This document shows positions 30,634 to 44,016 of a stretch of 64,000 nt of DNA, piece after piece. Origin of the DNA: Paenibacillus sp. W2I17 (lineage in GTDB: Bacteria; Bacillota; Bacilli; Paenibacillales; Paenibacillaceae); the NCBI RefSeq assembly GCF_030815985.1, contig NZ_JAUSXM010000001.1, positions 5,952,001-6,016,000 on the forward strand, in the 5' to 3' direction. The stretch's first letter is position 1. Every line of letters starts with the position of its first letter. The notes beneath the pieces are model-generated. The model worked only from the letters and a program-made list of their open reading frames with translations, made no database searches and had not been told where the DNA came from. A program made the translations under genes and the position numbers.

Positions 30634-30688
30634 GCAGGGCGCAAGATAAGTGATGTTATTGTGTTGAGATGCAAATATTATTTCGAGG

Positions 30689-30720
30689 CAGTGCTGCGAA
30701 CAAGCAGCACTGTTTTTTTT
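30689..30720 (+). terminator. Terminator of the Gld-type operon
   Basis: CAGTGCTGC (30689-30697) pairs perfectly with GCAGCACTG (30704-30712), followed by eight T residues. Confidence 0.9.
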
Positions 30721-30891
30721 ATTTTATATAGCGAAGAAACTCGGTCCACTGATCAAAACCCAAAGACCAATAAACAAAGAACAAAACAAGAAGACCCAAA
30801 TCTACAGGGTAAGGTACCATATCCTTTCAGCATATCGGTACGTACAGAAGCGCATCCTATCTTTGTGACCAAAACCAACAAACATTGGAGG

Positions 30892-31893
30892 ATGAGTACA
30901 TGCCAGCAGTCAAAAAAGGCAACAGCTATTACGTTATCATTATCTACTGCAATCTTTGTAATGGCCGGTTTGACAGGTTGTGGCACGAATCGGGATACCA
31001 ACAATATGCATACGCAAAGTGTTCGTCAGCAAGCCAACGGGATTAACCGTTATGGTGTGGAAACAAATGGCATGGATGGCATCCGTGCGAAAAGTTATCG
31101 CATGCACAATGTGACTGACCTGAAATCCAGTGAAGAGCTGGCAAAACGCATCACGGAGATGAAGGAAGTTAAATCCGCCCGTGTCATGTTAACGGATCGT
31201 AATGCTTATGTGGCTGTTCGTTTGGCAGATGGTCATGCAGGCAAGTTGGAAAGCAAGTCCAATGGTCGTACGAGCATGCTGAATGGAACGATGCGTAATA
31301 ATGCCAGTGATACCATGCGTGGGGGCAACATGAATCACGATATGGGTGGTATGCGTGTGAATGGCGGTACAGGCACAATGTCTCCGTACAGCACTAGCGG
31401 AATTGCTCCAGGACTGAACACAAATTCAGCAACGGATCGCAGCCATATGGGGAATGACCGGAGCATCTATGGAACCATGGGCACAGGCACAATTGGCATG
31501 ATGCGTGGTCTGACAAACAGCGGCAAAGCACGTGGGACGGACGATGGGCATTATTATGGTATGAAAAGTGAAGGACAACGTGTAGATAGCACGGACGATA
31601 ACACATCAGCTGAGATAAAGGGTAAGATTTCAGCCAAAATCAAGCAGTTTGCACCAAACATCGAGAATGTATATGTATCAGCCAATCCGGAGTTTGTGGA
31701 GCATGTGGAGAACTATGCCACAGATATTCGTAACGGTAAGCCCGTTAGTGGCATGATTGATACGTTCCAATCGATGGTAGAGCGCATTTTCCCAACGAAC
31801 GGAACAGATACAAATAACCGTGATGGCATCCTTAACGATGGTCTGATGAACCGTAATAATAACGATGGCATGATGAATCGAATGAACCGGTAG
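30892..31893 (+). CDS. YhcN/YlaJ-type spore lipoprotein with a Gly/Met/Asn-rich insert
   Basis: Sporulation lipoprotein of the YhcN/YlaJ group (333 residues). A signal peptide ends in lipobox MAGLTGC. The conserved domain is split by an insert: LKSSEELAKRITEMKEVKSA and ARVMLTDRNAYVAVRL come first, then about 120 residues rich in Gly, Met, Asn and Arg, then IKGKISAKIKQFAPNIENVY. The start is uncertain. ATG 30892 directly abuts GGAGG, while an ATG at 30900 with ideal spacing is in another frame; losing one A from the run at 30911-30916 would join them. A spore envelope role is from the family. Confidence 0.8.
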   Translation: MSTCQQSKKATAITLSLSTAIFVMAGLTGCGTNRDTNNMHTQSVRQQANGINRYGVETNGMDGIRAKSYRMHNVTDLKSSEELAKRITEMKEVKSARVMLTDRNAYVAVRLADGHAGKLESKSNGRTSMLNGTMRNNASDTMRGGNMNHDMGGMRVNGGTGTMSPYSTSGIAPGLNTNSATDRSHMGNDRSIYGTMGTGTIGMMRGLTNSGKARGTDDGHYYGMKSEGQRVDSTDDNTSAEIKGKISAKIKQFAPNIENVYVSANPEFVEHVENYATDIRNGKPVSGMIDTFQSMVERIFPTNGTDTNNRDGILNDGLMNRNNNDGMMNRMNR

Positions 31894-31908
31894 TTCTGAA
31901 GACAGATG

Positions 31909-31963
31909 AACAAGTGTGCCTTTGCGCCGATGGTAACATCCGCTGCAGGGGCATGTTTGTTTT
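31909..31963 (+). terminator. Terminator after the spore lipoprotein gene
   Basis: AACAAGTGTGCCTTTGC pairs along 17 positions with GCAGGGGCATGTTTGTT if G-T pairs are allowed, and ends in TTTT. Confidence 0.75.
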
Positions 31964-32048
31964 ACATGATCCAATACATAGACAATTGAATACGTTCTCT
32001 TTGGACAATGAATCACATGTTTACTGCCCATTTTTCTTATAAAACTGA

Positions 32049-32076
32049 ACCAACGCCCTTGACCTTACATAAGATG
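32049..32076 (+). promoter_or_regulatory. Candidate sigma-K promoter of gerE
   Basis: AC at 32049-32050, a 17-base spacer, then CATAAGATG (32068-32076) closely fits the sigma-K pattern AC-N16/17-CATANNNTA. It would start transcription about 55 bases before the gerE start codon. In B. subtilis gerE is sigma-K dependent, so the position fits established biology. It has not been tested here. Confidence 0.5.
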
Positions 32077-32137
32077 AGTTGACTGTATCCCCTTAACCTT
32101 GTTACACCAACACAACCCGAGCAAGGAGGGGTGAACA

Positions 32138-32290
32138 TTGAAGGGTATCGATCATAAAAGCAAATTTTTGTTGACCCACCGTGAACGCGAAGTATTCGAA
32201 TTACTGGTTCAAGACAAAACAACGCGTGACATCGCAGGGCAGTTATTCATCAGCGAGAAAACGGTGCGTAACCATATTTCGAATGTGATG
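32138..32290 (+). pseudogene. gerE: gerE, 5' part (codons 1 to 51), interrupted by an element
   Basis: First 51 codons of the late mother-cell regulator GerE (LuxR-type HTH). LTHREREVFELLVQDKTT and FISEKTVRNHISNVM are near-diagnostic. A TTG start follows AAGGAGGGGTG. The frame is cut inside the DNA-recognition helix. Unexcised, it runs into element sequence and ends at 32431 as a 97-residue chimera that should not bind DNA. Joining 32290 to 42059 restores a 74-residue protein, the length of B. subtilis GerE. It is therefore better seen as a split gene than a dead one. Confidence 0.93.
32274..32290 (+). other. Left attachment site core of the gerE element
   Basis: ATATTTCGAATGTGATG, 17 bases, identical to 42042-42058. 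Bases on both sides differ between the two copies, so the match ends exactly here. By symmetry of the reconstructed attP, the crossover dinucleotide is predicted to be AA at 32282-32283. Confidence 0.88.
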
Positions 32291-32310
32291 TGTAAAAGTG
32301 TCATAAAGTT

Positions 32311-32341
32311 AAGACGACTGAAAAGCAGTCGTCTTTTTTTT
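32311..32341 (+). terminator. Terminator at the left end of the element
   Basis: AAGACGACTG (32311-32320) pairs perfectly with CAGTCGTCTT (32326-32335), followed by TTTTTT. It stops transcription from the gerE promoter only 20 bases into the element, insulating the cargo from sporulation transcription. Confidence 0.9.
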
Positions 32342-32411
32342 ATTTCAGGTAATAAAACAAACATGATCCTACTTACTTCAAAATACATTGTAGAAAGGGA
32401 GGTGCTCATAC

Positions 32412-32597
32412 ATGAAGAAGAATTACAATAGCGGATTTACAAACAAAAAGGAAAGTGAAAATCAAAAGAAGTGTTATTTATGTGGAAATTGGGATAGGTA
32501 CATTTATAGTGTTCTTCTTAAAAGCAGTAAAATTAAAGTTTTGGTTTGCTTTCAATGCTATCACGAAGGACTAAATAAAAATTTTGAAGATATTTGA
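32412..32597 (+). CDS. Small zinc-ribbon-like protein
   Basis: A 61-residue protein with two CxxC pairs (CYLCG near residue 21, CFQCY near residue 48), a spacing suited to binding one zinc ion. GGGAGGTG lies upstream of the ATG with normal spacing. Lys/Asn-rich ends are typical of AT-rich element genes. The family is not recognised. It overlaps the end of the truncated gerE chimera frame. A nucleic-acid-binding or regulatory role is possible but unproven. Confidence 0.6.
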   Translation: MKKNYNSGFTNKKESENQKKCYLCGNWDRYIYSVLLKSSKIKVLVCFQCYHEGLNKNFEDI

Positions 32598-32664
32598 AAA
32601 ATATTGAAGGTTATTTACTAATTTGGTCGAATAAAACCACGATAATATTATTGGAGGTGGCCAA

Positions 32665-35320
32665 ATGATTAAATTATACGATCAGAAAAAAGGCTCGCAG
32701 TGGAGAAAATGGGATTTACATATCCATTCGACGTATTCTAAAGAGTCGAGTGCAAAGCTAAGTATAAAAAAGATCTTTGATGAAGCAATTTCAAAAGGGA
32801 TATCAGTCATCTCTGTTACTGACCATTCAAATGTTAAGTCATTGGATGAAATTTGGGAAGTGTATCAGTCCAGTTTTACAACAAATGATGGAGTTGAATT
32901 AAAGTATAAAGATTTTTATAAGTTTTATACCCGGGGTTGAATTGAAAACAGATAAGGGTCAAAAACCAATTCACATGGTTGTCCTATTCCCTACTATTGT
33001 TGACAGGGGTAAGTATAAAGAAGAGGTAACCACAAAGTATCTTGAAGATAATTTCCTAAGCAAGATTAACTGTACTGACTCTGTGATCACACAATATGGC
33101 GAGGGTGATTATGCGAGAGGGCTTTTAGAAATTCAAGTTGATTTTGAAGAAACTTGCAAATTGGCTCGTTCTTTAGGTGGAATAACAATCGTTCATAATG
33201 GTTCAAAAGATGGAGGGTTTGATCGAGGTTTAAGTCATGCAAAAACTCCAACCCCTACTCACGAAGATATTATCAGTTCTTTCGATGCATTAAAGGGTAA
33301 GTTAATGATTGAATGTGTTGATATATGTGAAATTCCCAACAATAGTGAATCGAATCTGAGAACAAAACAATTTTATCTGGATACCTTTAATAAACCTTGC
33401 ATAATCTCTTCGGATTCACATTCTCAATATGAAGGCAAAAAATATTCATGGATAAAAGCCGAGCCCACAATTGAAGGACTTAGACAAGTGATTTATGAAC
33501 CCAAGCACCGTGTACATCTTGGTGAATATTCACCAGTAGACCCCGTTCACAAGATAAATATAGTGAAAATGAATTTCCCAGAAACCACAAAAATTGTAGG
33601 AGAAGATTTTTGTGTGAGAGGTGACCTGGAGATACCATTCAGTCCAAACTTGACTTGTTTTATTGGTGGGAGAGGTAGTGGAAAGAGTACTATATTAAAT
33701 TTAATACATGAAAAGTTAAAACCAGGAGAAAATCTATTCTTTAAAAAATTTAAACTTGAAAATTTACCTAAAGAGAAGGAAATTGGGGATTATATACAGA
33801 TAGATGATAACGACGACGAAAAGTTTATTGAATTTCTTAGTCAAAATGAAATTGAAGACTTCGCTATAAATTATGAGAAATTCACAACATCTTTATTTCC
33901 AAGGTTATTGAAGGTGTCTGAATCTGCAAGATATATTGAATTAAATAATCAATTGGGAAAATACATAGAAAGTATTGATGAAAAGAAAGATTGTCTTGTT
34001 AAGCAATTTAAATTACAGGTACAAAAAAAGTCTAACGAGAAGCAAAAGAAGACTTTTGAGAACATCGTCAACTCCCTAAAGGATGAAACTTATACCCTTT
34101 TAAATATGAAGATAAAAGACACAGATAAAGAGATAAAACAGATAAAAAAATCAAAGGAATCGTTTGTTAATTATGTGAAAGAAATTGAGAACATAAACTC
34201 ATCTTACGTTGTTGATTCATCTAATATGATAAACAATATCTACGAAAAGAAGAAAGATGAAATGATCAAATCTATAAGCAAAGTAGTCGATGAGTACTCA
34301 AAAGACGATAACTTTACTATAATTAATGATCGTTTAAATGCATTAGAGGATCAGTTGTTAACAGAAAGACAAAGTATAAATGAATATCTTACTTCAAAGG
34401 GATTGACCGGTGAGAATTTAGCGGACGTTGCATCGGCCACTCAAGAAGTTAATAAATATGATGCCCTTATCCGAGAAGATGGAGAAAATATTGACATCTT
34501 GCAGGAAAGAATAGATACTTTTATCCAAAATGATACCCTTAAAGATCAGTTGATAGATGAAATTAATGGTATGATTCAGAATTTAAATTTATCACTTATG
34601 AATCTGAGTGAGCATGTTAAACCTATTGAAGTATCTTTTTCTTTTGATTTTGAGAAGGCAAAGAAAGAAATACTTAATGCAATGAAAGTTAGTTTCGAAA
34701 AGTTTGATTATTTTAACAATATAAAGATGAGCGATATTGAAAAGTACTTATTTTGTGTTGAGCCTAATGAAATTAATGATTTTGATATATATCTAACGGC
34801 TCTTCAAGCGGTAGGAATAAAGTCAAAAACATTTAATGCGTTAAACGAATATTTCTCAGTACCAATTAGATTCGCAATTTTCAAGCTAATTATCAAGAAA
34901 AATCTTATGGATGTAGATTCTTATAAAACTCTAAAAGTTCAATATGATGGTAAGAAATTAGAGAATACGTCTTTCGGACAAAGATGTACTGCTGCGATTG
35001 TGCTTTTATTAAAACTTGGGAACAATCCAATTATAATTGATGAACCTGAAGCGCATTTAGATGGTACTGTTATTGCAGAATATCTGGTGGATTTAATCAA
35101 AGAAAATAAACAAAACAGACAAATTATTTTTTCTACCCACAATGCAAATTTTGCAATAAATGGTGATGCAGAATTAATTAATATATTAGATGTAAGTGAA
35201 CTTAATAAAACTCAAATTACTTCGACCTCTATTGAAGATATCGAAAATAGGGATAAATTACTTCGATTGGAAGGCGGAAAATTGGCATTTGAAAATAGAG
35301 AGAAAAAGTATCAGTTCTAA
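32665..35320 (+). pseudogene. PHP-phosphoesterase / SMC-like ATPase (TrlF-like), frameshifted
   Basis: Two abutting frames, 32665-32940 and 32942-35320, form one gene of about 884 codons. Part 1 holds PHP metal motifs LHIHSTYS and VTDHS. Part 2 holds VHNGS and SSDSHS, Walker A GGRGSGKST near its residue 242, a coiled-coil middle, signature SFGQRCTAA and Walker B IIIDEPEAHLD with IIFSTHNANFA. Removing one T from TTTT at 32923-32926 gives the family-like FIPGVELK joint. It resembles proteins I remember as TrlF family, often defence-associated. It may be inactive, a sequencing error or a slippage site; part 2 alone would start at TTG 32942 without a good binding site. Confidence 0.82.
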
Positions 35321-35324
35321 AAAT

Positions 35325-35358
35325 AAGCCATCCTTGTTACTACAGGGATGGCTTTTTA
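35325..35358 (+). terminator. Terminator after the PHP/ATPase gene
   Basis: AAGCCATCC (35325-35333) pairs with GGATGGCTT (35346-35354), followed by TTT. The stretch up to 35806 has only a possible gene remnant at 35406 and is otherwise AT-rich with no recognised feature. Confidence 0.85.
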
Positions 35359-35405
35359 AATACTGTCTTACCAAGTTCTGTTCACTATAAAACTTTAAAG
35401 CTTAA

Positions 35406-35489
35406 GGTGTTATTAGCCAAATCAAATTCGTTGATGTCCGAATTGATTATTTGTCAGGTGAAGAAGTTGAAGAAATACATAAAGCGTAA
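35406..35489 (+). pseudogene. Possible C-terminal remnant of a lost gene
   Basis: A stop-bounded frame encoding 27 residues with an amphipathic acidic end (DYLSGEEVEEIHKA) and no start codon or ribosome binding site. It looks like the tail of a decayed gene, but chance is possible. No family can be assigned. Confidence 0.25.
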
Positions 35490-35806
35490 AAAGTAAAGAA
35501 TTTCAGCATTAATGAACATTCAATACATCATCAGTCGAAATCTAAGACGTATAGCTTCAATTTTTATCAGTCTAATCATTAAGTGATAAGCGATCTCTAA
35601 AAAACATCTTAGAAGCGAAATTTGAACCCCATAAATTGAATTGAAAAAACTTCTGTTTTCAGGGTCAATTATTATTCTGTTTTACGGTCTTTATATATGA
35701 GGAAGCAAAATGAAAGCTTTCTTCCTTCATTGTGTGGTTGTTGTCGTCAAACATTTACCTCACTAAGGAACGAAGCTTCTTTATTTTGAAAGGAGACAAA
35801 GTTCAT

Positions 35807-36022
35807 ATGACAGAAGAAGCACGCAAAACAATGAACGATTACCAACGAAAATGGCGCAAAGCAAATCAAGAAAAATTAAAAGAGTATCGCATACGATATC
35901 GTGAAAAATCCAGAGAATGTAAACGAAAATGGCGCGCGGCTAATCCGGAAAAAACAAAAGAATATCAAAAACGTTATTGGGAAAAGAAAGTCAAATCTAA
36001 AAATAAAAAGGATGATCAATAA
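35807..36022 (+). CDS. Small basic repeat protein (RKWRxANxEKxKEY repeats)
   Basis: A 71-residue, highly charged helical protein built from two copies of a roughly 25-residue unit (YQRKWRKANQEKLKEYRIRY and KRKWRAANPEKTKEYQKRY). This repeat type occurs in small phage and plasmid proteins. AAAGGAGAC precedes ATG 35807; an upstream in-frame start at 35732 has no such site. The stop overlaps the next start by one base. Function is unknown; nucleic-acid binding is plausible from charge. Confidence 0.65.
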   Translation: MTEEARKTMNDYQRKWRKANQEKLKEYRIRYREKSRECKRKWRAANPEKTKEYQKRYWEKKVKSKNKKDDQ

Positions 36023-36579
36023 TGCAAGAGTTAATAGAAAAGCTGAAAGCCGATAAATTAGCATATCAAGCTGAATTAACCAATCGAAAAATGATGTGGT
36101 TGAATGAAGAAGAGAAGTTGAAGGACTTGAAGGAAAGAGTTAAACAGTTAACTTTAACGCATGCTCCAGTGGAAGAATTGGATGTTGTTTATGAAGAAAT
36201 CAATAAACAAGAAGTTATCGTTAATCGGAGAAAAAATGAATATGAATTAATCTCGGAAAATTCCGTTTTTGAATTCTCTTTGCCAATGGATGAAATCATG
36301 AGACAAGCTAAGAATTACGAAGATCAAGAAAAAGCTATTTGTGATTCTATCTTGGAAGAAGTGTTGCAGAAAAAGCAAGAATACCTTGATCTTATCGGGA
36401 AATTAGAAGATCGAGTGTATGATATGCATAAGCAAAAGAAGGCAATGAATATTCAGTTGAATCATGTAAATGGCTCGGTACTACAATTGCCTGATTTATG
36501 GAGTATGTATAACCAAAAAGCTTCTTTCAAAACTTTAACAATTCCTGTGCTTCCGATAAAACATAGAGAAGTATGGTAA
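36022..36579 (+). CDS. Coiled-coil protein of unknown function
   Basis: A 185-residue protein, mostly long charged helices (residues 1 to 75 and 95 to 150) with hydrophobic heptads, and a short C-terminal non-helical part (LTIPVLPIKHREVW). Not recognised. It starts at the stop of the preceding gene and is followed after 14 bases by the next start, so it belongs to a small operon of phage-like genes. A scaffold-like or accessory role is a guess and is not claimed. Confidence 0.65.
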   Translation: MQELIEKLKADKLAYQAELTNRKMMWLNEEEKLKDLKERVKQLTLTHAPVEELDVVYEEINKQEVIVNRRKNEYELISENSVFEFSLPMDEIMRQAKNYEDQEKAICDSILEEVLQKKQEYLDLIGKLEDRVYDMHKQKKAMNIQLNHVNGSVLQLPDLWSMYNQKASFKTLTIPVLPIKHREVW

Positions 36580-36593
36580 GGGAGGAATATAAA

Positions 36594-36809
36594 ATGAAGA
36601 ATAAAGAAAATTCAGGTGTATTTGCAAGCTTATTTAAGCAAGAAGCACCGATTGAAGATAAATCAAAGTCAATTGATATGGAAGCAATTGCTGATAACAT
36701 TGCAGAAGGAGTGCTTAATATTATTAATTCAAAGAAGAATGACGAAAAGGTTGAAATCAAGAAAGAAGAAGGTAACGTATTTACAAGTTTATTCAAGGGA
36801 ATTGAATAG
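36594..36809 (+). CDS. Small protein with duplicated ASLFK/TSLFK motif
   Basis: A 71-residue protein. NSGVFASLFKQE near the N-terminus and GNVFTSLFKGIE at the C-terminus form an internal repeat around a helical acidic/basic centre. GGGAGGAA lies 8 bases before ATG 36594. The duplicated short hydrophobic motif suggests two identical docking peptides. The family is not recognised. Confidence 0.6.
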   Translation: MKNKENSGVFASLFKQEAPIEDKSKSIDMEAIADNIAEGVLNIINSKKNDEKVEIKKEEGNVFTSLFKGIE

Positions 36810-36872
36810 TTAAAAAAGCGGACAAGCACTTATATAGCACATATAAGAGTTGAACAATAGAAATCAAAAGCC

Positions 36873-36928
36873 AAGCTACACGAGATGAGCAAGGGAAAAT
36901 CCTAAACTCAGACCGTGTAGCTTTTTTG
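36873..36928 (+). terminator. Hairpin with T run before the HGG-motif gene
   Basis: AAGCTACACG (36873-36882) pairs perfectly with CGTGTAGCTT (36914-36923) over a 31-base loop, then TTTT. It ends the upstream small operon or attenuates the next gene, whose ribosome binding site follows within 13 bases. Confidence 0.65.
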
Positions 36929-36946
36929 TGGTAAGGAGGAAAGAAA

Positions 36947-37630
36947 GTGATCGACCAAAATAAAGTTGCATGGACGACTGGAGAACCGGACAAGCGAAAA
37001 GATATTCCAGGGTTGAAGAATGCTCGTGTATGTTCTGCAGTAAGCAGACGAACGGGAAATCCGTGTAAAGCAAAAGCGATGTCCAATGGTAAGTGTCAAC
37101 ATCATGGAGGGAAGACCAATCCGGAGGCTATTTCAGCGGCTATGATAGGAAACGAAAATCAAGTAAAAACCCATGCACATCAACGATTAGTGCAAGGTGC
37201 ATTTAAAGGTGATGAACTTGAATATATCGATAACGAAGAAAATCTTTCACCTTTGGAATCAGCGTATTCAAACAGGAAAATCTTGTTCGTTCGTTTGTTG
37301 CGCATGCAAAGGCGATATGACTTATTACAAGAGAAGTATGGGGAAGACGGTCTGAAGCTTGTTACGATCGAAACAGAACGCGGTACAAGTTCTTCGAAGT
37401 ATAAGCGCACAAACACAATCAAGGAAGTGCGCTCTGATTTCACAGGACAAATACTTGCACTTGAATCCGAAATGTCGAAAGTTCAAGGACAAATAATTAA
37501 ACAAGATAATACAATTGCCCAATTAGAAGAACAAAATGGAACACCGGAAGATACAAGCGGAGCGGATAAATTCATTGAAGCGTTAAATAGGGCAGCGGCT
37601 GCAATAAGATGGGAAAATGAAGGAGAATGA
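36947..37630 (+). CDS. HGG-motif protein, possible small-terminase-like DNA-binding protein
   Basis: A 227-residue protein. The N-terminal region has C-x(11)-C, KAMSNGKCQHHGGKTNPEA, the HGG-type motif found in phage-associated DNA-binding proteins (RTGNPCKAKAM just before it). The rest is helical with a coiled coil near residues 150 to 195. GTG 36947 follows GTAAGGAGGAAAG. No large terminase gene is in the element, so a packaging role would depend on a helper phage. That reading is inference; a general DNA-binding role is equally possible. Confidence 0.65.
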   Translation: MIDQNKVAWTTGEPDKRKDIPGLKNARVCSAVSRRTGNPCKAKAMSNGKCQHHGGKTNPEAISAAMIGNENQVKTHAHQRLVQGAFKGDELEYIDNEENLSPLESAYSNRKILFVRLLRMQRRYDLLQEKYGEDGLKLVTIETERGTSSSKYKRTNTIKEVRSDFTGQILALESEMSKVQGQIIKQDNTIAQLEEQNGTPEDTSGADKFIEALNRAAAAIRWENEGE

Positions 37631-37872
37631 ATAATATGGAATATACAGAAACCTTGATTGATTCTGCAGTAATAAAGATTAGGTGTGCTCAACGTCGAAC
37701 CATGAAGAAGATAAGTGAATTGGATAAGGAAGGATTACATAACCTTCCACAAATCATGGAGCATGAAGAAGAAATGAATACACTTCACAATTCAATGTTA
37801 TGGCTTCTTGAAAAGAAATTCGAATTGGATCGGTCAAAGAAAGTAATTAATTTTATAATATCGAATGTATAA
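37627..37872 (+). CDS. Small helical protein of unknown function
   Basis: An 81-residue helical protein (KIRCAQRRTMKKISELDKEG, then LPQIMEHEEEMNTLHNSMLW). It overlaps the previous stop by ATGA, and an in-frame ATG at 37636 is an alternative start. It is followed by a strong terminator, closing the unit. The family is not recognised. Confidence 0.6.
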   Translation: MNNMEYTETLIDSAVIKIRCAQRRTMKKISELDKEGLHNLPQIMEHEEEMNTLHNSMLWLLEKKFELDRSKKVINFIISNV

Positions 37873-37876
37873 TCAC

Positions 37877-37925
37877 GGCATGCCGTCCTAATTGACATAT
37901 TAGCGACTGCATGCCTTCTTTTTTA
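37877..37925 (+). terminator. Terminator in the middle of the element
   Basis: GGCATGC (37877-37883) pairs with GCATGCC (37909-37915), followed by TTCTTTTTTATT. Confidence 0.75.
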
Positions 37926-37939
37926 TTATGAGAATTGTT

Positions 37940-37971
37940 GAATCGAACACAATGGCTATTTTGTTCGATTC
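37940..37971. promoter_or_regulatory. Recombination-site-like inverted repeat
   Basis: GAATCGAACACAA and TTTTGTTCGATTC are 13-bp arms with 12 complementary positions around a 6-base centre (TGGCTA). Two inverted arms with a 6 to 8 base spacer is the layout of tyrosine-recombinase core sites such as dif. It lies 140 bases before the tyrosine recombinase gene. Its function as a crossover site is inference. Confidence 0.55.
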
Positions 37972-38047
37972 GTATAAATGACGTAAAGCCTTGATACATC
38001 AACGTTTTTTGAATTAGCGATAAATTAAAATGACCTCTACACAAAAT

Positions 38048-38090
38048 GAATCGAACATAATATAATGAATTTATAAATTAAGTTCGATTC
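38048..38090. promoter_or_regulatory. Second GAATCGAAC inverted repeat over a promoter
   Basis: GAATCGAACATAA (38048-38060) and TTAAGTTCGATTC (38078-38090) are complementary at 12 of 13 positions but 17 bases apart. A TATAAT box (38061-38066) sits between them and the gene's ribosome binding site AAAGGAGG follows at once. The wider spacing suits an operator by which the recombinase represses its own gene. Confidence 0.55.
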
Positions 38091-38109
38091 AAAGGAGGAC
38101 GATAAGACG

Positions 38110-38676
38110 ATGGAATTTGTTGAACCTATCCGAGATAAGAAGAAGATTGAAGCAATGAAGAAGGTGTTAAAAGGATCAAACATGAGGGATTATTGCTTGT
38201 TCGTATTGGGCATTAATTCTGGGTTGAGAATAAGCGATATTTTGAATCTAAGGATTGATGATGTGATAGATGTTAATCGCAAGTTGAAAGAACGAATCAT
38301 AATCAAAGAGAAGAAAACAGGAAAGCCCAAAGATTTTCCTATCAATGAATCGACGGGTAAAGCGATTCGTGAATATTTAGACACCCGATTGAATTACCAA
38401 ATGGATGAACCGCTGTTCATCAGTCGCAAGAAAGGTGCTCCATTGCAAAGAACAACAGCATGGACAATATTAAATGAAACGGCTGAAATGGTTGGAATTA
38501 AAAACATCGGAACGCACACTTTACGAAAAACATTCGGGTATCACTATTACAAAGAAACAAAGGATGTAGCAATGCTTCAAAAAATCTTCAATCATTCAGC
38601 GCCAAGTATCACATTACGTTACATCGGAATAAGCCGAGATGAACAAGATGAAGCATACCTAAACTTCAACTTATAA
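38110..38676 (+). CDS. Small tyrosine recombinase / integrase
   Basis: A 188-residue tyrosine recombinase that is essentially a catalytic domain only. The catalytic set is visible: Arg in GLRISDILNL, Lys in KKTGKP, HTLRKTFG, His in IFNHSAPS and the Tyr nucleophile in TLRYIGIS. It lacks the usual N-terminal core-binding domain seen in 300-residue integrases. It is preceded by two GAATCGAAC inverted repeats. It probably resolves multimers or drives a local rearrangement; integration into gerE is better explained by the serine recombinase. Confidence 0.85.
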   Translation: MEFVEPIRDKKKIEAMKKVLKGSNMRDYCLFVLGINSGLRISDILNLRIDDVIDVNRKLKERIIIKEKKTGKPKDFPINESTGKAIREYLDTRLNYQMDEPLFISRKKGAPLQRTTAWTILNETAEMVGIKNIGTHTLRKTFGYHYYKETKDVAMLQKIFNHSAPSITLRYIGISRDEQDEAYLNFNL

Positions 38677-38727
38677 AAACTTCATGAACCCTTAAAAAAA
38701 CTTTAAAACCCTTGGAGGATGATTTTT

Positions 38728-38937
38728 ATGACGAAACGTGAAATCCGAGATTACGCAAGAACGCTGTATCAATTAGCTAAGTTGACCGCCAAGAAGGATC
38801 GACAACAATCCATCGAATACGCAAAGCAAGCAATGGAGGAAGTCGTAGATCAATTAGAAACCAATAAAAAAGCGGTTGAATTGTACAAGAAGGCCGAAGA
38901 GATTTACAAAATGAAATCAAAGCAGATGACTGCATAA
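38728..38937 (+). CDS. Small helical protein of unknown function
   Basis: A 69-residue charged helical protein (MTKREIRDYARTLYQLAKL, then KKAVELYKKAEEIYKMK). TTGGAGGATG gives correct spacing to ATG 38728, whereas the in-frame ATG at 38719 overlaps the site. It is followed directly by a terminator. The family is not recognised. Confidence 0.62.
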   Translation: MTKREIRDYARTLYQLAKLTAKKDRQQSIEYAKQAMEEVVDQLETNKKAVELYKKAEEIYKMKSKQMTA

Positions 38938-38950
38938 TGCAATCTAACTA

Positions 38951-38985
38951 TCCCTTGAAGGTTAATCCTTCAGGGGATTTTTTAT
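38951..38985 (+). terminator. Terminator after the 69-residue gene
   Basis: TCCCTTGAAGG pairs with CCTTCAGGGGA around TTAAT, followed by TTTTTTA. Confidence 0.85.
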
Positions 38986-38994
38986 TAATGTAAT

Positions 38995-39160
38995 AAAAGA
39001 GCTCATGTAAGAAGGTCATAGCGTATCGGGAAACGTTGTAGCTTCGTAGCTATGACGTTTTTTTGTTGATTGAATAGGAAAGGTTGTTGAAAGCCTTCGA
39101 CCCGCTAAATTCAAAGCTAAGCGTATGACGAGTACGCTTAAAATAACGTGCTCTTTTTTT
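38995..39160 (+). ncRNA. Candidate structured RNA upstream of the replication-type gene
   Basis: An outer stem AAAAGAGC (38996-39003) / GCTCTTTT (39150-39157) encloses an inner stem GTCATAGC (39015-39022) / GCTATGAC (39049-39056) with a T run, and a perfect hairpin AAGCGTA/TACGCTT (39119-39139). It ends in TTTTTTT. There is no open frame. It could be a leader RNA, a copy-number control RNA or two nested terminators. No known RNA family is recognised. Confidence 0.4.
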
Positions 39161-39256
39161 ATATGAATTTATACAAGTATGCCTAATCATTTTCTTCCTT
39201 CTATTTAACTTGATTAATAGATGACACATTACGAGAAAGTTAGGAAGCGATATTCA

Positions 39257-40069
39257 ATGAATAAAAGAATTGAAAGAATGCAAGGTACAAGCATATCAGA
39301 ATCACAAATGGTTACAGTTAAAACAATGCGAGATTATGTTGAAGTGACTGCAGTTGATAAAGCAAATACAGGATTCAGTAAGAATAAGAAGATATCTAAA
39401 ACGGAATACGTTAATACGGAAACAGGTGAAATTCATCAATATAAAACAAGTTCCGAAAAAGGTAAAAGCAAGATTAGTGCAAGGAAATCTACAAATATGA
39501 TCAATGACTTGATTCACACTAACTTTCAAGCAAGGAAAAATGAATGGTCTATCGTATTAACTTATGCTGAACACATGACATGTCCTATGCAACTATATGA
39601 AGATTTTGAAAAGTTTTGGAAGAAGGTCAAATACAAATATGGTAAAAACATCGATTACATTTCAATTGCTGAACCACATGAAAGCGGATCATGGCATTTG
39701 CATGTGCTGATAAGGTTCAATGACAAAGAAGAAATCCCTATCAAACCGAGTGATATAAATTATCTTTGGGTGAAGGGTCATGTTTCAATAAAGGAGATTT
39801 ATGACGTTCCAGGATTAGCGGGATACCTTTCAAAGGGAGAAAGACTTATGCATTATCCTCCCGGAATGAATATGTACAGAGCAAGCAGGGGAATTAAAAA
39901 ACCGAAGAAGGAAAAAGTTCCTTATGGTCAACTAAAAGAAAGAATCAAGGATGCGACCCTCGATTCTCCTTCATTTACGCTCAACATATATGATGATGAA
40001 CGCTTGGTGAATAAAATTAGTAAGGAAAAGTATATCATGAAACAAAAATCGAGAATAGTTGGAAGTTAA
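39257..40069 (+). CDS. HUH-type rolling-circle replication initiator-like protein
   Basis: Probable single-strand nicking/replication protein, about 270 to 282 residues. The HUH motif appears as GSWHLHVLIRF and the downstream Tyr motif as GLAGYLSKG (Tyr, then Lys three residues later), the catalytic layout of rolling-circle Rep proteins. An earlier in-frame ATG at 39221 would add 12 residues but has no ribosome binding site, while AGGAAG precedes 39257. It would let the excised circle replicate. It could instead be a relaxase-like mobilisation protein. Confidence 0.72.
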   Translation: MNKRIERMQGTSISESQMVTVKTMRDYVEVTAVDKANTGFSKNKKISKTEYVNTETGEIHQYKTSSEKGKSKISARKSTNMINDLIHTNFQARKNEWSIVLTYAEHMTCPMQLYEDFEKFWKKVKYKYGKNIDYISIAEPHESGSWHLHVLIRFNDKEEIPIKPSDINYLWVKGHVSIKEIYDVPGLAGYLSKGERLMHYPPGMNMYRASRGIKKPKKEKVPYGQLKERIKDATLDSPSFTLNIYDDERLVNKISKEKYIMKQKSRIVGS

Positions 40070-40116
40070 TCCTCCGTCCATCTTTTTAATGAATATATAA
40101 TGATTATTTTATTTTT

Positions 40117-40148
40117 GGACGCACTTAAAAATTTGCGTTCATTTTTTA
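40117..40148 (+). terminator. Terminator after the HUH gene
   Basis: GGACGCA (40117-40123) pairs with TGCGTTC (40134-40140), followed by ATTTTTT. Confidence 0.8.
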
Positions 40149-40149
40149 T

Positions 40150-40189
40150 ATGTCAGTCAAACATCATGAAAGGATGAAGTGACTGACAT
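40150..40189 (+). promoter_or_regulatory. Inverted repeat enclosing the ribosome binding site
   Basis: ATGTCAGTCA (40150-40159) and TGACTGACAT (40180-40189) are perfectly complementary. The 20-base loop holds AAAGGATGAAG, the ribosome binding site of the next gene, and the right arm contains the first two bases of its ATG. In RNA this hairpin could gate translation; in DNA it could be an operator. Confidence 0.55.
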
Positions 40190-40481
40190 GAATTCGTCGT
40201 GTACAACTGATCCAAGATTAATTAGTAATGGGACAATTTTAGGTGCTCATATGAATGAATATGGGGTGAAGCCTATGCATAAGAAAAAGGGGTTTTACAT
40301 TCGTTATCACCAAGTTGAAGGTGATTTGCAAAGTGTTATATCCGAACTTGCACAGGAAAAGGTCTTGTCTGTTCTTAATAATAGTATATATAATCCTACT
40401 ATTCCATTTTATGACAAACATATTACAGTAGGAGATGTGAACGATGCAAAGAGCGGCAATCTACGTAAGGGTATCAAGTAA
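40188..40481 (+). CDS. Small protein preceding the serine recombinase, possible directionality factor
   Basis: A 97-residue protein, not recognised (opens MNSSCTTDPRLISNGTI; middle KKKGFYIRYHQVEGDLQSV). It overlaps the recombinase start by 38 bases and is thus co-expressed with it. ATG 40188 fits AAAGGATG with 11-base spacing. Large serine recombinases need a small partner to reverse direction (SprB for SprA in SP-beta). Position makes this gene a candidate, but sequence alone does not show it. Confidence 0.6.
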   Translation: MNSSCTTDPRLISNGTILGAHMNEYGVKPMHKKKGFYIRYHQVEGDLQSVISELAQEKVLSVLNNSIYNPTIPFYDKHITVGDVNDAKSGNLRKGIK

Positions 40482-42015
40482 GAAAGAATCTCAAAAGGAT
40501 TCTCCGGAGCACCAAGAGTCATTATGTCGTTCATTTTGTCAAGAAAATGAGCTCGAAATCGTAAAGGTTTATAAAGATCAAGATTCCGGTACTTCGATTG
40601 TAGGAAGACCTGATGTTCAACGAATGATTGAAGACGCAGAAAATGGAGAGTTCGACGCTGTAATATTTGCATCGTTGTCGAGGTTTTCAAGGGATTCTTT
40701 TGATGCGTTGCTCTTAAAGCGTACGTTTCATGGTGCTTTGAGAAAACGATTGGTATCAATAGAAGATTTATACGACACTGCAAAAGGCGATAACGATTTA
40801 ATGTTTAATGTTGTGTCAGCAGTCAATCAAAAGATGAGCGAACAGACAAGTACGGCCTCGCGAAGAGGGATTCAACAGTCGGCATTAAAGGGGAATTTTA
40901 CTGGTTCATTTGCGCCATATGGATACGAAAAGGCCAATATAGATGGACGCAAAACACTTGTAATTGATCAAGAAGCGGCAGAGGTTGTAAAGATGATTTT
41001 TGATCTATATGTAAATCGCAAAATGGGGGAGAAAGCTATTGTGAATTATTTGAATTCTCCTGAGGTTGCGATACCTTCGCCAAGGCAAAAGGGAGCTTGG
41101 GGGATAACTACTATTCAAAGGATTTTACAAAATGAAGTTTATATGGGGTTTAACGTGTTCAGCAAATATAAAAAAATAATTCATTACGATGACCATAAAA
41201 ATCTTCAAGATCGTAGAAAGAAGATGGTTCAACAAGACAAGGAAAAGTGGTTAAGAACTGATTTCAAAACTCATGAGGCTATCATAGAGGAAGATTTGTT
41301 TAATCGAGTAAAGGAAGTTCGGCGTTTGCGAAGTGGCGGTACACGAGGAAGCCACAAACAGCCTGTTAATGTTTTTCGAAAGATTATCTTTTGCAAGCAT
41401 TGTGGTTCCGCTATGGTTACAATGAGTTCCAAGATGAGAGGGAAAAAATATCAGTATCTTATGTGTTCCAGAAGACGTAGGACAGGTGTAACTGGTTGTG
41501 AAAATGGTAAATGGGTTCCTTATCAAGAAATGAGAGATGAATTGATTGCATGGGTAGGTAAGAAGATCAGCGAACAGTTGAACGTTGACTCATACACAGA
41601 TTCAGTTATCAATCAATTGAAGTCACAAGAGAACAAGAAAAAGAATTCGGAAAATGAAATCAAGAAGATTCAAAAGCAAATTGAACAAAACAGGGAATTA
41701 TTATTTAAGTTAAGAAAGTTGTACATGCTTGAAGAGTTGGATGATGTCCAATACAAGTATGACAAGGACAAGTACGAGACGAAAATTGCCGAACTTGAAG
41801 AAAAGTTGGAAAAGATTCAAAGTGAATCTATTCAACAAAAAGATTATGAACAAGAACGCTTACGCATACAAGATGCACTAAACGAGTTAATCACATTCAG
41901 TAATTACGAAGAAGTTGAAAAGGTTCGAGCGGTTCTTAGCAAGTTGATCAAGAATATAACCGTTGATTCAGAAGGCAATATTGATGTTTACTCTTTGCTT
42001 GGTAAGCTTGCATAA
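40444..42015 (+). CDS. Large serine recombinase of the gerE element
   Basis: A 523-residue large serine recombinase, similar in build to SpoIVCA/CisA and SprA. The catalytic domain starts AAIYVRVSSKKESQ with the nucleophile Ser at residue 11 or 12 and continues ASLSRFSRD. The recombinase domain spans about 140 to 300 (QSALKGNFTGSFAPYGY). A zinc ribbon uses Cys 317, 320, 341 and 352, and a coiled coil covers about 385 to 470. TAGGAG precedes the ATG. Its stop is 27 bases from the right attachment core, the expected place. It should insert and excise the element at gerE. Confidence 0.93.
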   Translation: MQRAAIYVRVSSKKESQKDSPEHQESLCRSFCQENELEIVKVYKDQDSGTSIVGRPDVQRMIEDAENGEFDAVIFASLSRFSRDSFDALLLKRTFHGALRKRLVSIEDLYDTAKGDNDLMFNVVSAVNQKMSEQTSTASRRGIQQSALKGNFTGSFAPYGYEKANIDGRKTLVIDQEAAEVVKMIFDLYVNRKMGEKAIVNYLNSPEVAIPSPRQKGAWGITTIQRILQNEVYMGFNVFSKYKKIIHYDDHKNLQDRRKKMVQQDKEKWLRTDFKTHEAIIEEDLFNRVKEVRRLRSGGTRGSHKQPVNVFRKIIFCKHCGSAMVTMSSKMRGKKYQYLMCSRRRRTGVTGCENGKWVPYQEMRDELIAWVGKKISEQLNVDSYTDSVINQLKSQENKKKNSENEIKKIQKQIEQNRELLFKLRKLYMLEELDDVQYKYDKDKYETKIAELEEKLEKIQSESIQQKDYEQERLRIQDALNELITFSNYEEVEKVRAVLSKLIKNITVDSEGNIDVYSLLGKLA

Positions 42016-42041
42016 GTCCACCTTGTTTATGACAGTTATAT

Positions 42042-42058
42042 ATATTTCGAATGTGATG
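42042..42058 (+). other. Right attachment site core of the gerE element
   Basis: Second copy of ATATTTCGAATGTGATG. Just inside the element lies TTTATGACA (42026-42034), the exact complement of TGTCATAAA at the other end (32299-32307). When the ends are joined these arms sit symmetrically around the core, with AA (42050-42051) at the centre. Confidence 0.88.
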
Positions 42059-42130
42059 CAGAAACTCAATGTTAAGGGTCGTTCGCAGGCAGTTGTCGAG
42101 CTGATTAAGCTTGGAGAACTGAAGATTTAG
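42059..42130 (+). pseudogene. gerE: gerE, 3' part (codons 52 to 74)
   Basis: Last 23 codons and stop of gerE, starting QKLNVKGRSQAVVELIKLG and ending ELKI. It continues the frame of the 5' part exactly after codon 51. It lacks its own start and is silent until excision. Together the two parts give a 74-residue GerE with the whole HTH. Confidence 0.93.
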
Positions 42131-42155
42131 TTGCGAATTACAGTTAGGATTAAGT

Positions 42156-42218
42156 AGCAGCATGAAAGCCTTTCTCTATTCTTTGTCATGAAGAATGGGG
42201 CAAGGCTTTTTTGCTGCT
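42156..42218 (+). terminator. Terminator of gerE
   Basis: A long stem: AGCAGCA (42156-42162) with TGCTGCT (42212-42218), AAAGCCTT with AAGGCTTT and ATTCTT with AAGAAT. It lies 25 bases after the gerE stop, as expected for the restored gene. Confidence 0.8.
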
Positions 42219-42338
42219 GACTTATAGTTTATAAAATTAACATCAGATTGTGTGTTGTTACAGGATTAAGTCACCCAACCATGGTGTACAAAAATAAGCC
42301 ACGCAACGACAACCATTCAAAGGTTATCATTACATGGC

Positions 42339-42632
42339 TTATGTTGAAAATTGAACATCCATTAATTCAAAGTCAACTTTGCATGAGGTTCCTGAGAAAA
42401 ATTCTTCTACAACCTCAACATCGCTTCTGCTCGTATGAAATACATATAACTCGCGCGTCGGATGGAGCTTGTGCAGTTCTTTATAACCGCTCCAGGCTTC
42501 TTGAGGATTATCATAGTTTTGAATAACAGCTATATCCTCTAGTTGACGGATACGGTTGCTGGAGCTTGCCTTGATTGCTTCCACAAGCACAAAACGATCT
42601 GGGTGTAATTCAGTAATCTCTCCCCATTTCAT
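42339..42632 (-). CDS. Small protein of unknown function
   Basis: A 97-residue protein with alternating strand-like segments (MKWGEITELHPDRFVLVEAI, then ELYVFHTSRSDVEVV). ATG 42632 is preferred since GCGAGGTGA precedes it; a GTG at 42641 overlaps that site. Not recognised by name, though the N-terminal pattern resembles small Bacillota proteins of unknown function. It reads towards the gerE terminator. Confidence 0.65.
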   Translation of the reverse strand: MKWGEITELHPDRFVLVEAIKASSSNRIRQLEDIAVIQNYDNPQEAWSGYKELHKLHPTRELYVFHTSRSDVEVVEEFFSGTSCKVDFELMDVQFST

Positions 42633-42859
42633 CGGCGTCACCTCGCTTGGATAGTCGTATTTTTATTATAGCATAGTCGTTTAAGGATGCAGGAAGTGAG
42701 CGCGTTAATTGTAATTATGTGGTACCTTGTAGTTATCGAGAGACCTATATAGCAACAGGGCGGGGATATGAATATCTCGTTAACCGTTTCGGCCCGAATC
42801 AATGGTTTTGAAAAGACATTTGAATCTTAAACTGCATTGAAAATGAAAGGATGAGCTAA

Positions 42860-43414
42860 ATGGACCATTTTTTAAGTGAATTTGAAATTCAATTTCGAGC
42901 GGGTTTTCTATCCGATCTGGAACAAACGCTGGCTAAGGTGCAACATGAAAAAGTATACGCTTGTGCATTTGGAACAGACAGTGATTGGGTAACGCTGTTC
43001 ATGGCGGTAAATACAGAGGAGTCATTAAGCAAACATATTACCAATATGAAGGAACAGGGGTTGTGCGACAGCGAGCAGGATGAGGTCTATTACAGATGGG
43101 GCTGTTCCGAATATCAATATGGCGAGGAGACGCACTTTAACCATATCAGCCGGTTGTTGTATGCAACAGAGGAGGTCCAGGGGTATAAGGATGAGATTAT
43201 TCGAATCATTGCCAAAGTTGTAAATGAGACAGCAGATGACGTTTTTGCCCGGTATGGACAAGCAAAAGCAGACATTACGTTCTTTGTTTCTCTAACAGAT
43301 GACGATCTGGCGGAAGAGATTGAAAATCAATCGGTTCATCAAATGACTGTCCCCAGCTTAGCCAGCAAGTTCTTAAAACGATATGATGGCATGAATCAGA
43401 ACGAGTTGACTTGA
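42860..43414 (+). CDS. DUF4303-like protein
   Basis: A 184-residue soluble protein. KVYACAFGTDSDWVTLFMAV, DEVYYRWGCSEYQYGEE and the C-terminal ITFFVSLTDDDLAEE match my memory of the DUF4303 family, which includes proteins near toxin-immunity genes. No polymorphic toxin is adjacent. AAAGGATGAGC precedes the ATG. It is a single-gene unit with its own terminator. Confidence 0.65.
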   Translation: MDHFLSEFEIQFRAGFLSDLEQTLAKVQHEKVYACAFGTDSDWVTLFMAVNTEESLSKHITNMKEQGLCDSEQDEVYYRWGCSEYQYGEETHFNHISRLLYATEEVQGYKDEIIRIIAKVVNETADDVFARYGQAKADITFFVSLTDDDLAEEIENQSVHQMTVPSLASKFLKRYDGMNQNELT

Positions 43415-43452
43415 GTTAAATTGAATCAAAAGAATTGAATCGTTGTACCGCG

Positions 43453-43499
43453 AAAGTCTTTCCTATTCTTTTATCCAAAGAAGGGAAGAGGCTTTTTTG
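43453..43499 (+). terminator. Terminator after the DUF4303-like gene
   Basis: AAAGTCTTTCC pairs imperfectly with GGGAAGAGGCTTT over a loop, followed by a T run. Confidence 0.6.
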
Positions 43500-43538
43500 T
43501 TTTAGCGTGAAAAAATGAAACAACCGAATTCATATCAC

Positions 43539-43886
43539 TTATAGATTCCTATTCATTTGAAGGAACGTCCTCCATATTTTCTTCGAAAATGGCTGATAAA
43601 AGAGCTGCTTCAGCTGCTCGAACTGTGCATCATTCAGATGAAGATGGAGCGCTCTTTTTGCTATTTTGGCGGCAGGCTGGGAAGAAGATTTCCGGCCTCC
43701 GGCTTTTCGTTTGATCGGAATATGAAATTGCAGCAAGTCTTCAAGTCGATTCCAGCCTTCCCAACTCAGCCGACCTCCGCGTTTCCAGTCAATAGCATAG
43801 AGGGCATAATAGGCATGTGCTTCTGTTTGTTTGGTAGCAATAATCCAGGTGGAAGGAATGAACTTTCTCCGTTGTCTTCGATTCAT
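43539..43886 (-). CDS. Basic small protein of unknown function
   Basis: A 115-residue protein rich in Arg, Lys and aromatic residues (MNRRQRRKFIPSTWIIATKQ, HAYYALYAIDWKRGG). No membrane segment is seen. AGAAGGAG lies 7 bases before the ATG. It is transcribed divergently from the amino-sugar operon. The family is not recognised. Confidence 0.65.
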   Translation of the reverse strand: MNRRQRRKFIPSTWIIATKQTEAHAYYALYAIDWKRGGRLSWEGWNRLEDLLQFHIPIKRKAGGRKSSSQPAAKIAKRALHLHLNDAQFEQLKQLFYQPFSKKIWRTFLQMNRNL

Positions 43887-43933
43887 TCAATTGCTCCTTC
43901 TTTTGATATTGCAAAAGTCATGTTAAATTCCTC

Positions 43934-44016
43934 TTGATTTGCAGGATCGTCTTGATTAGAATAAAGTTATAAAAATGATTTTCTTAATTTATTAAAAATA
44001 AATAAAAATAATTTTC
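43934..44016 (+). promoter_or_regulatory. Promoter and candidate operator of the nag operon
   Basis: TTGATT (43934-43939), 17 bases, TAGAAT (43957-43962) fits a sigma-A promoter. Two direct copies of AATNATTTTC (43974-43983 and 44007-44016), 33 bp apart, follow and could be bound by the RpiR-type regulator encoded next. The operator assignment is inference. Confidence 0.5.

Follow-up and report, generated by a model that had tools for sequence, protein, structure and literature searches.

gerE is a small gene that spore-formers require late in spore formation. Interrupted sporulation genes have mostly been reported as single case stories, and one such element, yin, reportedly lies in yabG. 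According to the accessible part of PMC5595907, skin in sigK and SP-beta in spsM (B. subtilis) and vfbin in spoVFB rely on a serine recombinase. The same part describes gin, reported in 2017 in the gerE of B. cereus ATCC10987 and B. toyonensis. gin is excised from gerE in sporulation by GirC and GirX, with a predicted diadenine crossover; its excision is sporulation-specific, mitomycin C does not induce it, and the 5' fragment of the split B. cereus gerE is non-functional. A prophage within B. glycinifermentans gerE is also noted there. Thus, gerE elements have already been described, a point on which the preliminary description of our locus was undecided. Xeni_IDv2, a Xenia-like phage, integrated into P. 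larvae gerE with duplication of nine bases (PMC12453123, accessible part). Only these two papers were found to bear on gerE insertions in a search that covered few subscription papers, and it yielded no Paenibacillus or family-wide gerE survey; the accessible parts of PMC11860570, PMC6070908, and PMC9341999 do not name gerE as an insertion site. New here are the family-wide gerE census, the integrase family, and a conserved small upstream ORF.

We analyzed a 64,000-nucleotide stretch of the Paenibacillus sp. W2I17 genome (the window; the genome is a single contig of 7.0 Mb). Its gerE is interrupted at codon 49 by an element of 9,768 bp whose edges are 17 identical bases:

32138..32290, + strand: gerE codons 1-51, TTG start (Pfam GerE 2.4e-16, profile positions 3-44 of 57)
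32274..32290, + strand: left 17-bp core copy, attL
32311..32335, + strand: intrinsic terminator-like hairpin inside the left end (consensus match only)
32412..32597, + strand: 61-aa ORF with two CxxC pairs, function unassigned
32665..32940, + strand: PHP-domain N-terminal piece of a Ppl-like PHP-ATPase gene (PF02811 5.9e-9)
32942..35320, + strand: SMC/AAA-type ATPase piece, Ppl-like (PADLOC Ppl 3.1e-25; AAA_21 1.7e-9)
35807..36022, + strand: 71-aa ORF, phage-type (phrog_14214 5.8e-9)
36022..36579, + strand: 185-aa ORF (weak PADLOC PDC-M01B match, 7.7e-4)
36573..36809, + strand: 78-aa ORF, no assigned function
36947..37630, + strand: terminase-small-subunit (TerS)-like protein (phrog_1889 2.2e-12)
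37627..37872, + strand: 81-aa ORF, no assigned function
38110..38676, + strand: tyrosine recombinase, 188 aa (PF00589 5.7e-30; phrog_216 1.3e-66)
38719..38937, + strand: 72-aa ORF, no assigned function
39221..40069, + strand: rolling-circle replication initiator, Rep (PF23343 4.4e-14)
40150..40189, no strand: perfect 10-bp inverted repeat ATGTCAGTCA..TGACTGACAT, read by eye, 5' of the integrase operon
40179..40481, + strand: small integrase partner, 100 aa as listed (partner profile match 1.8e-8)
40444..42015, + strand: large serine integrase, 523 aa (phrog_95 3.5e-116)
42042..42058, + strand: right 17-bp core copy, attR
42059..42130, + strand: gerE codons 52-74 and stop, without a start of its own

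The window has exactly two copies of the 17-bp core, ATATTTCGAATGTGATG, which begin at 32274 and 42042; its opposite strand has none. The GC content is 34.1% in the element (32274-42041) and 46.6-46.7% in the 10-kb flanks. The 5' gerE frame continues inside the element up to 32431 (97 codons), and joining the flanks in silico gave an open 74-codon GerE; together with the repeat count, this confirmed the original claim of a gerE split between 17-base repeats. The excised junction is palindromic, being symmetric at 17 of 30 positions about a central AA, while 20,000 random points within the element gave a mean of 8.0 and reached 17 in a fraction of 0.0009. This palindrome around the AA of Asn49 is as expected for a serine-integrase attP, and the crossover point is predicted at that AA. 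The integrase ends at 42015 and the right repeat begins after 26 bases, so that its position near the edge stood but the distance of 27 bases first given did not. On the sequence, it is well supported that the element entered gerE site-specifically through its own large serine integrase and that this step is reversible without a scar; to this extent the proposal that the element is excisable holds.

Both gin and the window element cut gerE at codons 47-49 (Ile-Ser-Asn) with a predicted AA crossover, and both have a large serine recombinase, direct core repeats, and a gerE that is restored on excision (in the window, as predicted). Neither has recognized capsid genes and both carry defence genes, restriction-modification in the case of gin. 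However, gin is 28.6 kb long and carries recJ and three serine recombinases, GirA, GirB, and GirC, whereas the window element is 9.8 kb long, with one serine and one tyrosine recombinase, a different core sequence, a plasmid-type rolling-circle Rep, the TerS-like protein, a Ppl-like defence gene, and a Paenibacillus-type host. gin encodes the 42-aa GirX (PMC5595907, accessible part); in the window element, a small protein is encoded 5' of the integrase. The P. larvae phages Lily, Xenia, and relatives resemble the window element in having the partner ORF directly 5' of the integrase and an attP with the gerE core behind it, but they are complete temperate phages, whereas the window element has no recognized capsid or tail gene. 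skin, SP-beta, vfbin, and yin follow the same principle of a split sporulation gene, with other targets, and are prophages or prophage-like.

The sigK gene of the window genome is uninterrupted. A second intact gerE, which would have made the split copy dispensable, was not found: among the 16 LuxR-type domains of the whole genome there is no second short gerE-type gene, and each of the other 15 is part of a frame of at least 210 aa. The cut at codon 49 would inactivate GerE; this expectation, already voiced for the unexcised form, fits the non-functional 5' fragment of the B. cereus experiment (PMC5595907, accessible part). Related strains have an uninterrupted gerE: we compared 27 intact same-genus copies, taken from the 30 best-scoring loci (the other three are split). 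Outside codons 47-51, the window halves show 0 amino-acid differences from these copies, and they are DNA-identical to 8 of the 27. Because of this match in DNA the insertion looks recent, too recent for the window halves to show a selection signal.

How frequent are such splits? An element splits gerE in 38 of the 394 genomes of the window's family (9 of 99 among single-contig genomes), spread over many genera. The control regulator spoIIID had a strongly reduced score in 1 genome, in a search that was similar rather than identical (family profile for spoIIID, single protein for gerE). The gerE elements of the family measure 2.5-63 kb and differ in their cargo. Codon 49 is the cut site of 37 of them, 36 in genomes other than the window's. 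Outside this family, the same site in gerE is interrupted in 14 genomes of 8 other families, in most cases with more distant integrases. One genome has gerE in three pieces. The 37 split copies are stop-free in both halves, with pN/pS of 0.051 (5') and 0.040 (3'), values that include pre-insertion change and were often taken against a nearest intact copy outside the genus (the set comprised 42 intact copies); intact-intact pairs gave lower values, 0.026 and 0.005, over shorter distances.

A single integrase family is shared by all 37 codon-49 elements, the window's among them, for which one contig holds both halves of gerE; in the genome G154, the integrase of the codon-49 element is broken into pieces. 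The window integrase falls within a clade of 22 rows (support 100/99) that includes the P. larvae phages, and it is 51-52% identical over 99% to those of Lily, Xenia, and relatives (Xenia, 52%). The attP of Lily and Xenia lies directly behind the integrase and contains the gerE core CACATCTCCAAT; the att arms of the window element are TTTATGACA..TGTCATAAA. Searched with the integrase, a viral contig collection gave no relative and a genome contig collection gave one, from P. lutrae.

A small ORF lies 5' of the integrase in 38 of 39 examined gerE-element integrases, the window's too, and is a candidate recombination directionality factor. The window ORF is listed as 100 aa, and two homologues begin at M4 and M33. 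A partner profile built without the window protein matches the window partner at 1.8e-8. The seed of 38 rows, in which G101 appears twice, was chosen near the integrase with a loose motif preferred, so only the matches outside it (window, Lily, and Xenia) test the profile; the match in G482 is by construction. No ORF matched beside 12 of 13 other-family integrases; thus, the partner is not universal. Pfam and solved structures returned nothing convincing for it, 3 of 14 partner rows in PHROGs match phrog_15506 (function unassigned; the window partner is not among them), and an AlphaFold model from a three-sequence alignment had a pLDDT of 41, too low for a fold search.

We also searched for promoter signals. 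Of 42 cases, 13 have the sigma-K-like CATAnnnTA 5' of the partner (shuffles: mean 1.6, maximum 7, 200 rounds); in the window, this region shows just a plain CATA. A fuller sigma-K pattern is present in 7 of 53 integrase operons (shuffles: 0.8, maximum 3) and absent in the window. Over the same 53 operons, neither a sigma-E pattern nor a sigma-A pattern (0/53) was commoner than in shuffles, and no strict sigma-E or sigma-K promoter was found for the window integrase operon. By analogy, we infer that excision of the window element would occur during sporulation.

We consider it probable that an integrative mobile element occupies one fixed spot in gerE and is excised in the mother cell during sporulation. 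The integrase would recombine at the AA within codon 49 (Asn), dividing gerE into a 5' part, with the start and the upstream region still attached, and a 3' part that lacks a start. Together with a directionality factor, probably the upstream small protein, the integrase would then recombine attL with attR, freeing the 9,768-bp circle and restoring the exact 74-codon gerE. This would most likely happen in the sporulating mother cell; since its chromosome is not inherited, the element would be kept in the forespore genome while GerE is supplied to the coat programme. Alternatively, gerE may be a mere attB, the strain being a lysogen-like mutant with defective coats in which excision is rare or follows phage-type induction. 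Such insertions without developmental fit have a precedent in Xeni_IDv2, which entered gerE in phage-challenged P. larvae isolates (PMC12453123, accessible part), and both the recent insertion, seen in the DNA identity of the gerE halves to intact relatives, and the absence of a strict mother-cell promoter in the window point the same way. Yet we find this alternative unlikely: the 37 split copies have stop-free halves with mostly synonymous changes, gin at the same site responds to sporulation and not to mitomycin C (PMC5595907, accessible part), and the splits are spread over many genera.

That the insertion is dead and stuck, with an immobile element and a lost gerE, is very improbable; the fragmented integrase of the G154 relative and the broken Ppl-like gene of the window would suit it, but the window has an intact integrase, an intact partner ORF, and two intact att sites. 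Misassembly or a strain mixture, for which we found no support, has a negligible chance given the exact att geometry, the symmetry centred on the predicted AA, and the 36 further codon-49 elements elsewhere in the family.

We suggest tentatively, as a possibility somewhat short of even, that mobile DNA throughout the Bacilli generally docks at the AA of codon 49 in gerE, with a rescue module acting in the mother cell. A serine integrase and a small directionality factor expressed from a mother-cell promoter would form a self-contained module; residence in gerE would be possible because each time this module would repair the gene in the mother cell, which is disposable. A gene on which the spore coat depends could then host phages and satellites as well as plasmid-like elements and plain cargo islands, from 2.5 to 63 kb in size, several integrase lineages would have reached the same dinucleotide, and elements could stack. 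The census, in which roughly one genome in ten of a large family of spore-formers has the last mother-cell regulator interrupted at a single dinucleotide, makes the question of why this gene testable. It also yields many natural integrase/att pairs, including minimal ones of 2.5-3 kb, and a small protein, conserved alongside the integrase, as a candidate directionality factor.

What does the window element carry? The hairpin at its left end would block gerE transcription running into the element, in a region with 7 terminator-like sites versus 5.1 in shuffles. Ppl is an anti-phage family, and the PHP-ATPase gene of the window is in two frames, with no intact PHP-ATPase protein in the element; because this defence gene is broken, some decay of the element has begun. 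Since none of the scanned ORFs was recognized as a capsid or tail gene, we dropped a purely phage reading. With a PICI-like satellite in mind, we noted the integrase, the Rep, the TerS-like HMM match, and no recognized capsid gene; a firm phage-satellite reading was dropped because the TerS-like protein had no tblastn match in phages. Rfam and tRNA scans, among them one of 30000-44000, were empty. The Rep is 25-39% identical to other Reps, which lie on 1.5-2.7-kb plasmids in 11 of the 12 matches listed (21 matched). The tyrosine recombinase is not the recombinase at the element ends.

The split of gerE in the window is real. The gene is interrupted within its coding sequence, and the features of the two parts and of the intervening DNA are as follows:

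32138, TTG start codon of gerE
to 32290, gerE 5' part, ending with codon 51; foreign DNA follows
32311-32335, terminator-like hairpin, 20 bp inward of the left core, inside the run-on gerE frame
right of the hairpin, 61-aa ORF
32665-35320, Ppl-like defence gene of PHP-ATPase type, interrupted around 32940 and lying in two frames
between this gene and the next named one, small ORFs
right of the small ORFs, terminase-small-like protein
right of the latter, tyrosine recombinase
right of the tyrosine recombinase, rolling-circle Rep, closest to tiny-plasmid Reps (25-39% identity)
42059-42130, gerE 3' part, from codon 52 through the TAG stop codon

The 17 bases ATATTTCGAATGTGATG start at 32274 and at 42042, one copy at each element edge and no further copy in the window, and the core starts lie 9,768 bp apart. 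GC content is 34.1% in the element versus 46.6-46.7% in the neighbourhood. Joining the flanks by script yielded an open GerE of 74 codons. Both the identical edges and the uninterrupted product, claimed in the preliminary description, are thus borne out. The recombinase (523 aa; resolvase, recombinase and zinc-ribbon domains) does adjoin the right core as described, but it ends 26 bp from it by our recount, not 27.

Related strains do carry an uninterrupted gerE: with codons 47-51 excluded, the window halves show no amino-acid difference from 27 intact same-genus copies (a non-random sample drawn from 30 top-scoring loci) and are base-identical to eight of them. The genome is a single contig of 7,008,369 bases with 16 LuxR-type HTH matches (E 0.001 or better), and a whole-genome search found no short frame of this type besides the truncated copy. 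Because the other 15 matches sit in frames of at least 210 aa, the window gerE is the genome's only one; the second intact copy that the preliminary description had raised as an objection was not found genome-wide. sigK is intact (278-aa frame).

The cargo reads like that of a plasmid- or satellite-type integrative element, not a prophage. The scanned element ORFs included no recognisable capsid, tail or large terminase gene; the Rep also matches two small phage genomes (29%). The two frames of the Ppl-like gene may reflect either recent inactivation or a sequencing error.

To place this element, we searched 394 genomes of its family, the Paenibacillaceae, with a full-length GerE query. gerE was shortened or broken in 44: in 38 a single contig holds both ends and an intervening element, in five (G059, G143, G177, G202, G310) the halves are on separate contigs, and one (G150) has a frameshift without insertion. 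The query matched at paralogue level only in 17 genomes (16 of genus g17, and G285), and the other 333 had best E values of 2e-35 or lower, full-length among the matches listed. Tallied by eye, nine of 99 single-contig genomes have a split gene (G000, G052, G055, G159, G213, G214, G222, G268, G339). As a control, a profile of spoIIID, a regulator of similar length, matched in 375 of the 394. Judged by score alone, it was strongly reduced in one genome, G199 (72% complete); it found no match in G177, G245 and G255, which are fragmented or incomplete, or in 16 g17 genomes, which fits sporulation loss in that genus. Since spoIIID is nearly never reduced in the same genomes, splitting is by this comparison peculiar to gerE and not an assembly habit.

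In 36 of the 38 split genomes gerE is cut solely at codon 49. In G294 the cut lies near codon 27 instead. G286 (loci L093, L094) has both cuts, near codon 27 and at 49, made by elements with different serine integrases, which leaves its gerE in three pieces. All 37 codon-49 elements, the window's included, carry the same integrase family in the stretches read (G154's is in pieces; in elements above about 20 kb it was mostly sought in the outer ~10 kb per side). The serine integrase of the codon-27 elements is a distant one, with 19-20% identity to that of the window. Measured half-to-half, the smallest element is 2.55 kb (G287) and the largest 62.8 kb (G100). Two consecutive gerE 3' halves in G159, G213, G354 and, across contigs, G059 are a sign of stacked elements, and G101 has two identical integrase units in tandem. 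G055, whose main gerE is also split, holds a second, mutated 5' fragment (G055:C1:6810-6953, in L149; 88% identity, one stop). We looked up 28 cargo proteins from 11 elements, several of which had no match. Two of ten proteins had PADLOC matches at 1e-10, a ThsA-like and a PDC-S06 defence protein, both from G128. G267 encodes a type IV pilus-type ATPase, and one phage-family profile is matched by both this protein and its G286 counterpart. A DNA methylase was identified in G313, a reverse transcriptase in G161, and ligase and sigma-factor proteins of phage type in G320; solute-binding proteins and a lipase were also among the cargo.

The same spot is used outside the family. From an even sample of the class (398 genomes, 310 with a gerE match) we followed 20 suspects picked by eye from reduced scores; at least three other suspects (G637, G669, G741) fall outside this set, so the counts do not amount to a rate. 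Fourteen of the 20, belonging to eight other families, carry the two halves on a single contig at a distance of 6.6-50 kb, and by eye the cut falls where it does in the window. Reading the element ends revealed an integrase in 13: two belong to the window's broad family (G443 and G482, 41-45% identity), three are at 28-30%, and eight are at 27-31% with quite different att arms. Thus, different integrase lineages use the same gerE spot.

The attP of the window element, its two inner flanks set side by side, is symmetric around the AA of the Asn49 codon: of 30 positions, 17 pair, the arm pair TTTATGACA / TGTCATAAA among them, and at random points in the element this is reached or exceeded in a fraction of 0.0009. 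Abe et al. (PMC5595907) predicted that gin, the gerE-intervening element of Bacillus cereus, is cleaved at the same diadenine, so that the predicted crossovers coincide. The window arms are unlike those seen by eye in many family elements, GTGTG(T/C)TTCAAA..TTTGAA(A/G)CACAC. In several relatives, G059 and G354 among them, the att arm itself seems by eye to form a terminator-like hairpin.

The closest named integrases are from Paenibacillus (P. lutrae, 77% identity; P. tarimensis, 67%). In a tree of 57 integrases, the window's falls in a 22-member set (support 100/99) with those of the Paenibacillus larvae phages Lily and Xenia, each 52% identical; its exact sister there is uncertain (84/48). 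Both phages have an attP with the gerE core directly after the integrase, Lily's being GTGTTTCAAACCACATCTCCAATGTAACATGTTTTGAAACACA, the core flanked by inverted arms:

L150 3540-3610, Xenia attP
L151 3740-3810, Lily attP

In P. larvae B-3650, a 2025 study (PMC12453123) found a third phage, Xeni_IDv2, integrated in gerE, with a duplication of nine bases. The P. lutrae integrase is decayed (L031, 10001-11330) and is followed by an attP-like stretch, TTTATGGACA..ACATTTCACGTGTGATG; an intact gerE (6325-6609) lies ~4 kb upstream. This locus resembles the remains of a related element near a whole gerE.

A small ORF adjoins the integrase start in 38 of the 39 window-family integrases examined (G101 entered twice); none was seen beside that of G443. 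We built a profile from these 38 ORFs and ran it on six-frame ORFs of at least 40 aa from the window and the phage, P. lutrae and other-family loci. It matched the window ORF 40179-40481 (1.8e-8), both phage ORFs (3e-13 and 1.1e-12) and, fourth and last, G482, itself a seed row; ORFs near the 12 remaining other-family integrases gave no match. Position and size would suit a directionality factor. A perfect 10-bp inverted repeat (40150-40189), a candidate operator or RNA hairpin, spans the listed start of the window ORF. gerE-intervening elements have been known since 2017; as far as the literature searched shows, the new points are the host group, the conserved partner gene, an element that is small, plasmid- or satellite-like and has att arms of its own, and a census in which codon 49 of gerE recurs as a docking site.

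Is the split gene still used? No stop occurs in either half of 37 split copies. Relative to the nearest of 42 intact copies, the 5' part has a pN/pS of 0.051 and the 3' part, which lacks its own start, one of 0.040; these values include pre-insertion change, and in many pairs synonymous change approaches saturation. Intact-intact pairs give lower values (0.026 and 0.005) across shorter distances. The stop-free copies and low pN/pS argue for continued use.

The −10 box of sigma-K promoters is CATAnnnTA. It occurs in 13 of 42 sequences within the 110 bases that precede the conserved part of the partner (shuffles 1.6, maximum 7), often downstream of a GGGGC..GCCCC repeat in one clade, and a fuller sigma-K pattern in seven of 53 versus 0.8 in shuffles; the sequences are mutually related and the counts are not independent trials. 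Upstream of the window partner there is no strict match, only a plain CATA at 40248, spaced from the inner start (40275) about as in relatives. Developmental control of the window element is therefore suggested by analogy with gin, in which transcription of the excision genes girC and girX falls at T3-T5 (PMC5595907). Excision timed to sporulation, the mechanism of the preliminary description, is the likeliest one. A block of the type GGGGCAACATGACCAAGCCCCTxCTCATAnnnTA recurs upstream of partner ORFs, for example in L081 (G101), L103 (G106), L110 (G112) and L118 (G129), possibly a promoter of sigma-K type combined with an inverted repeat.
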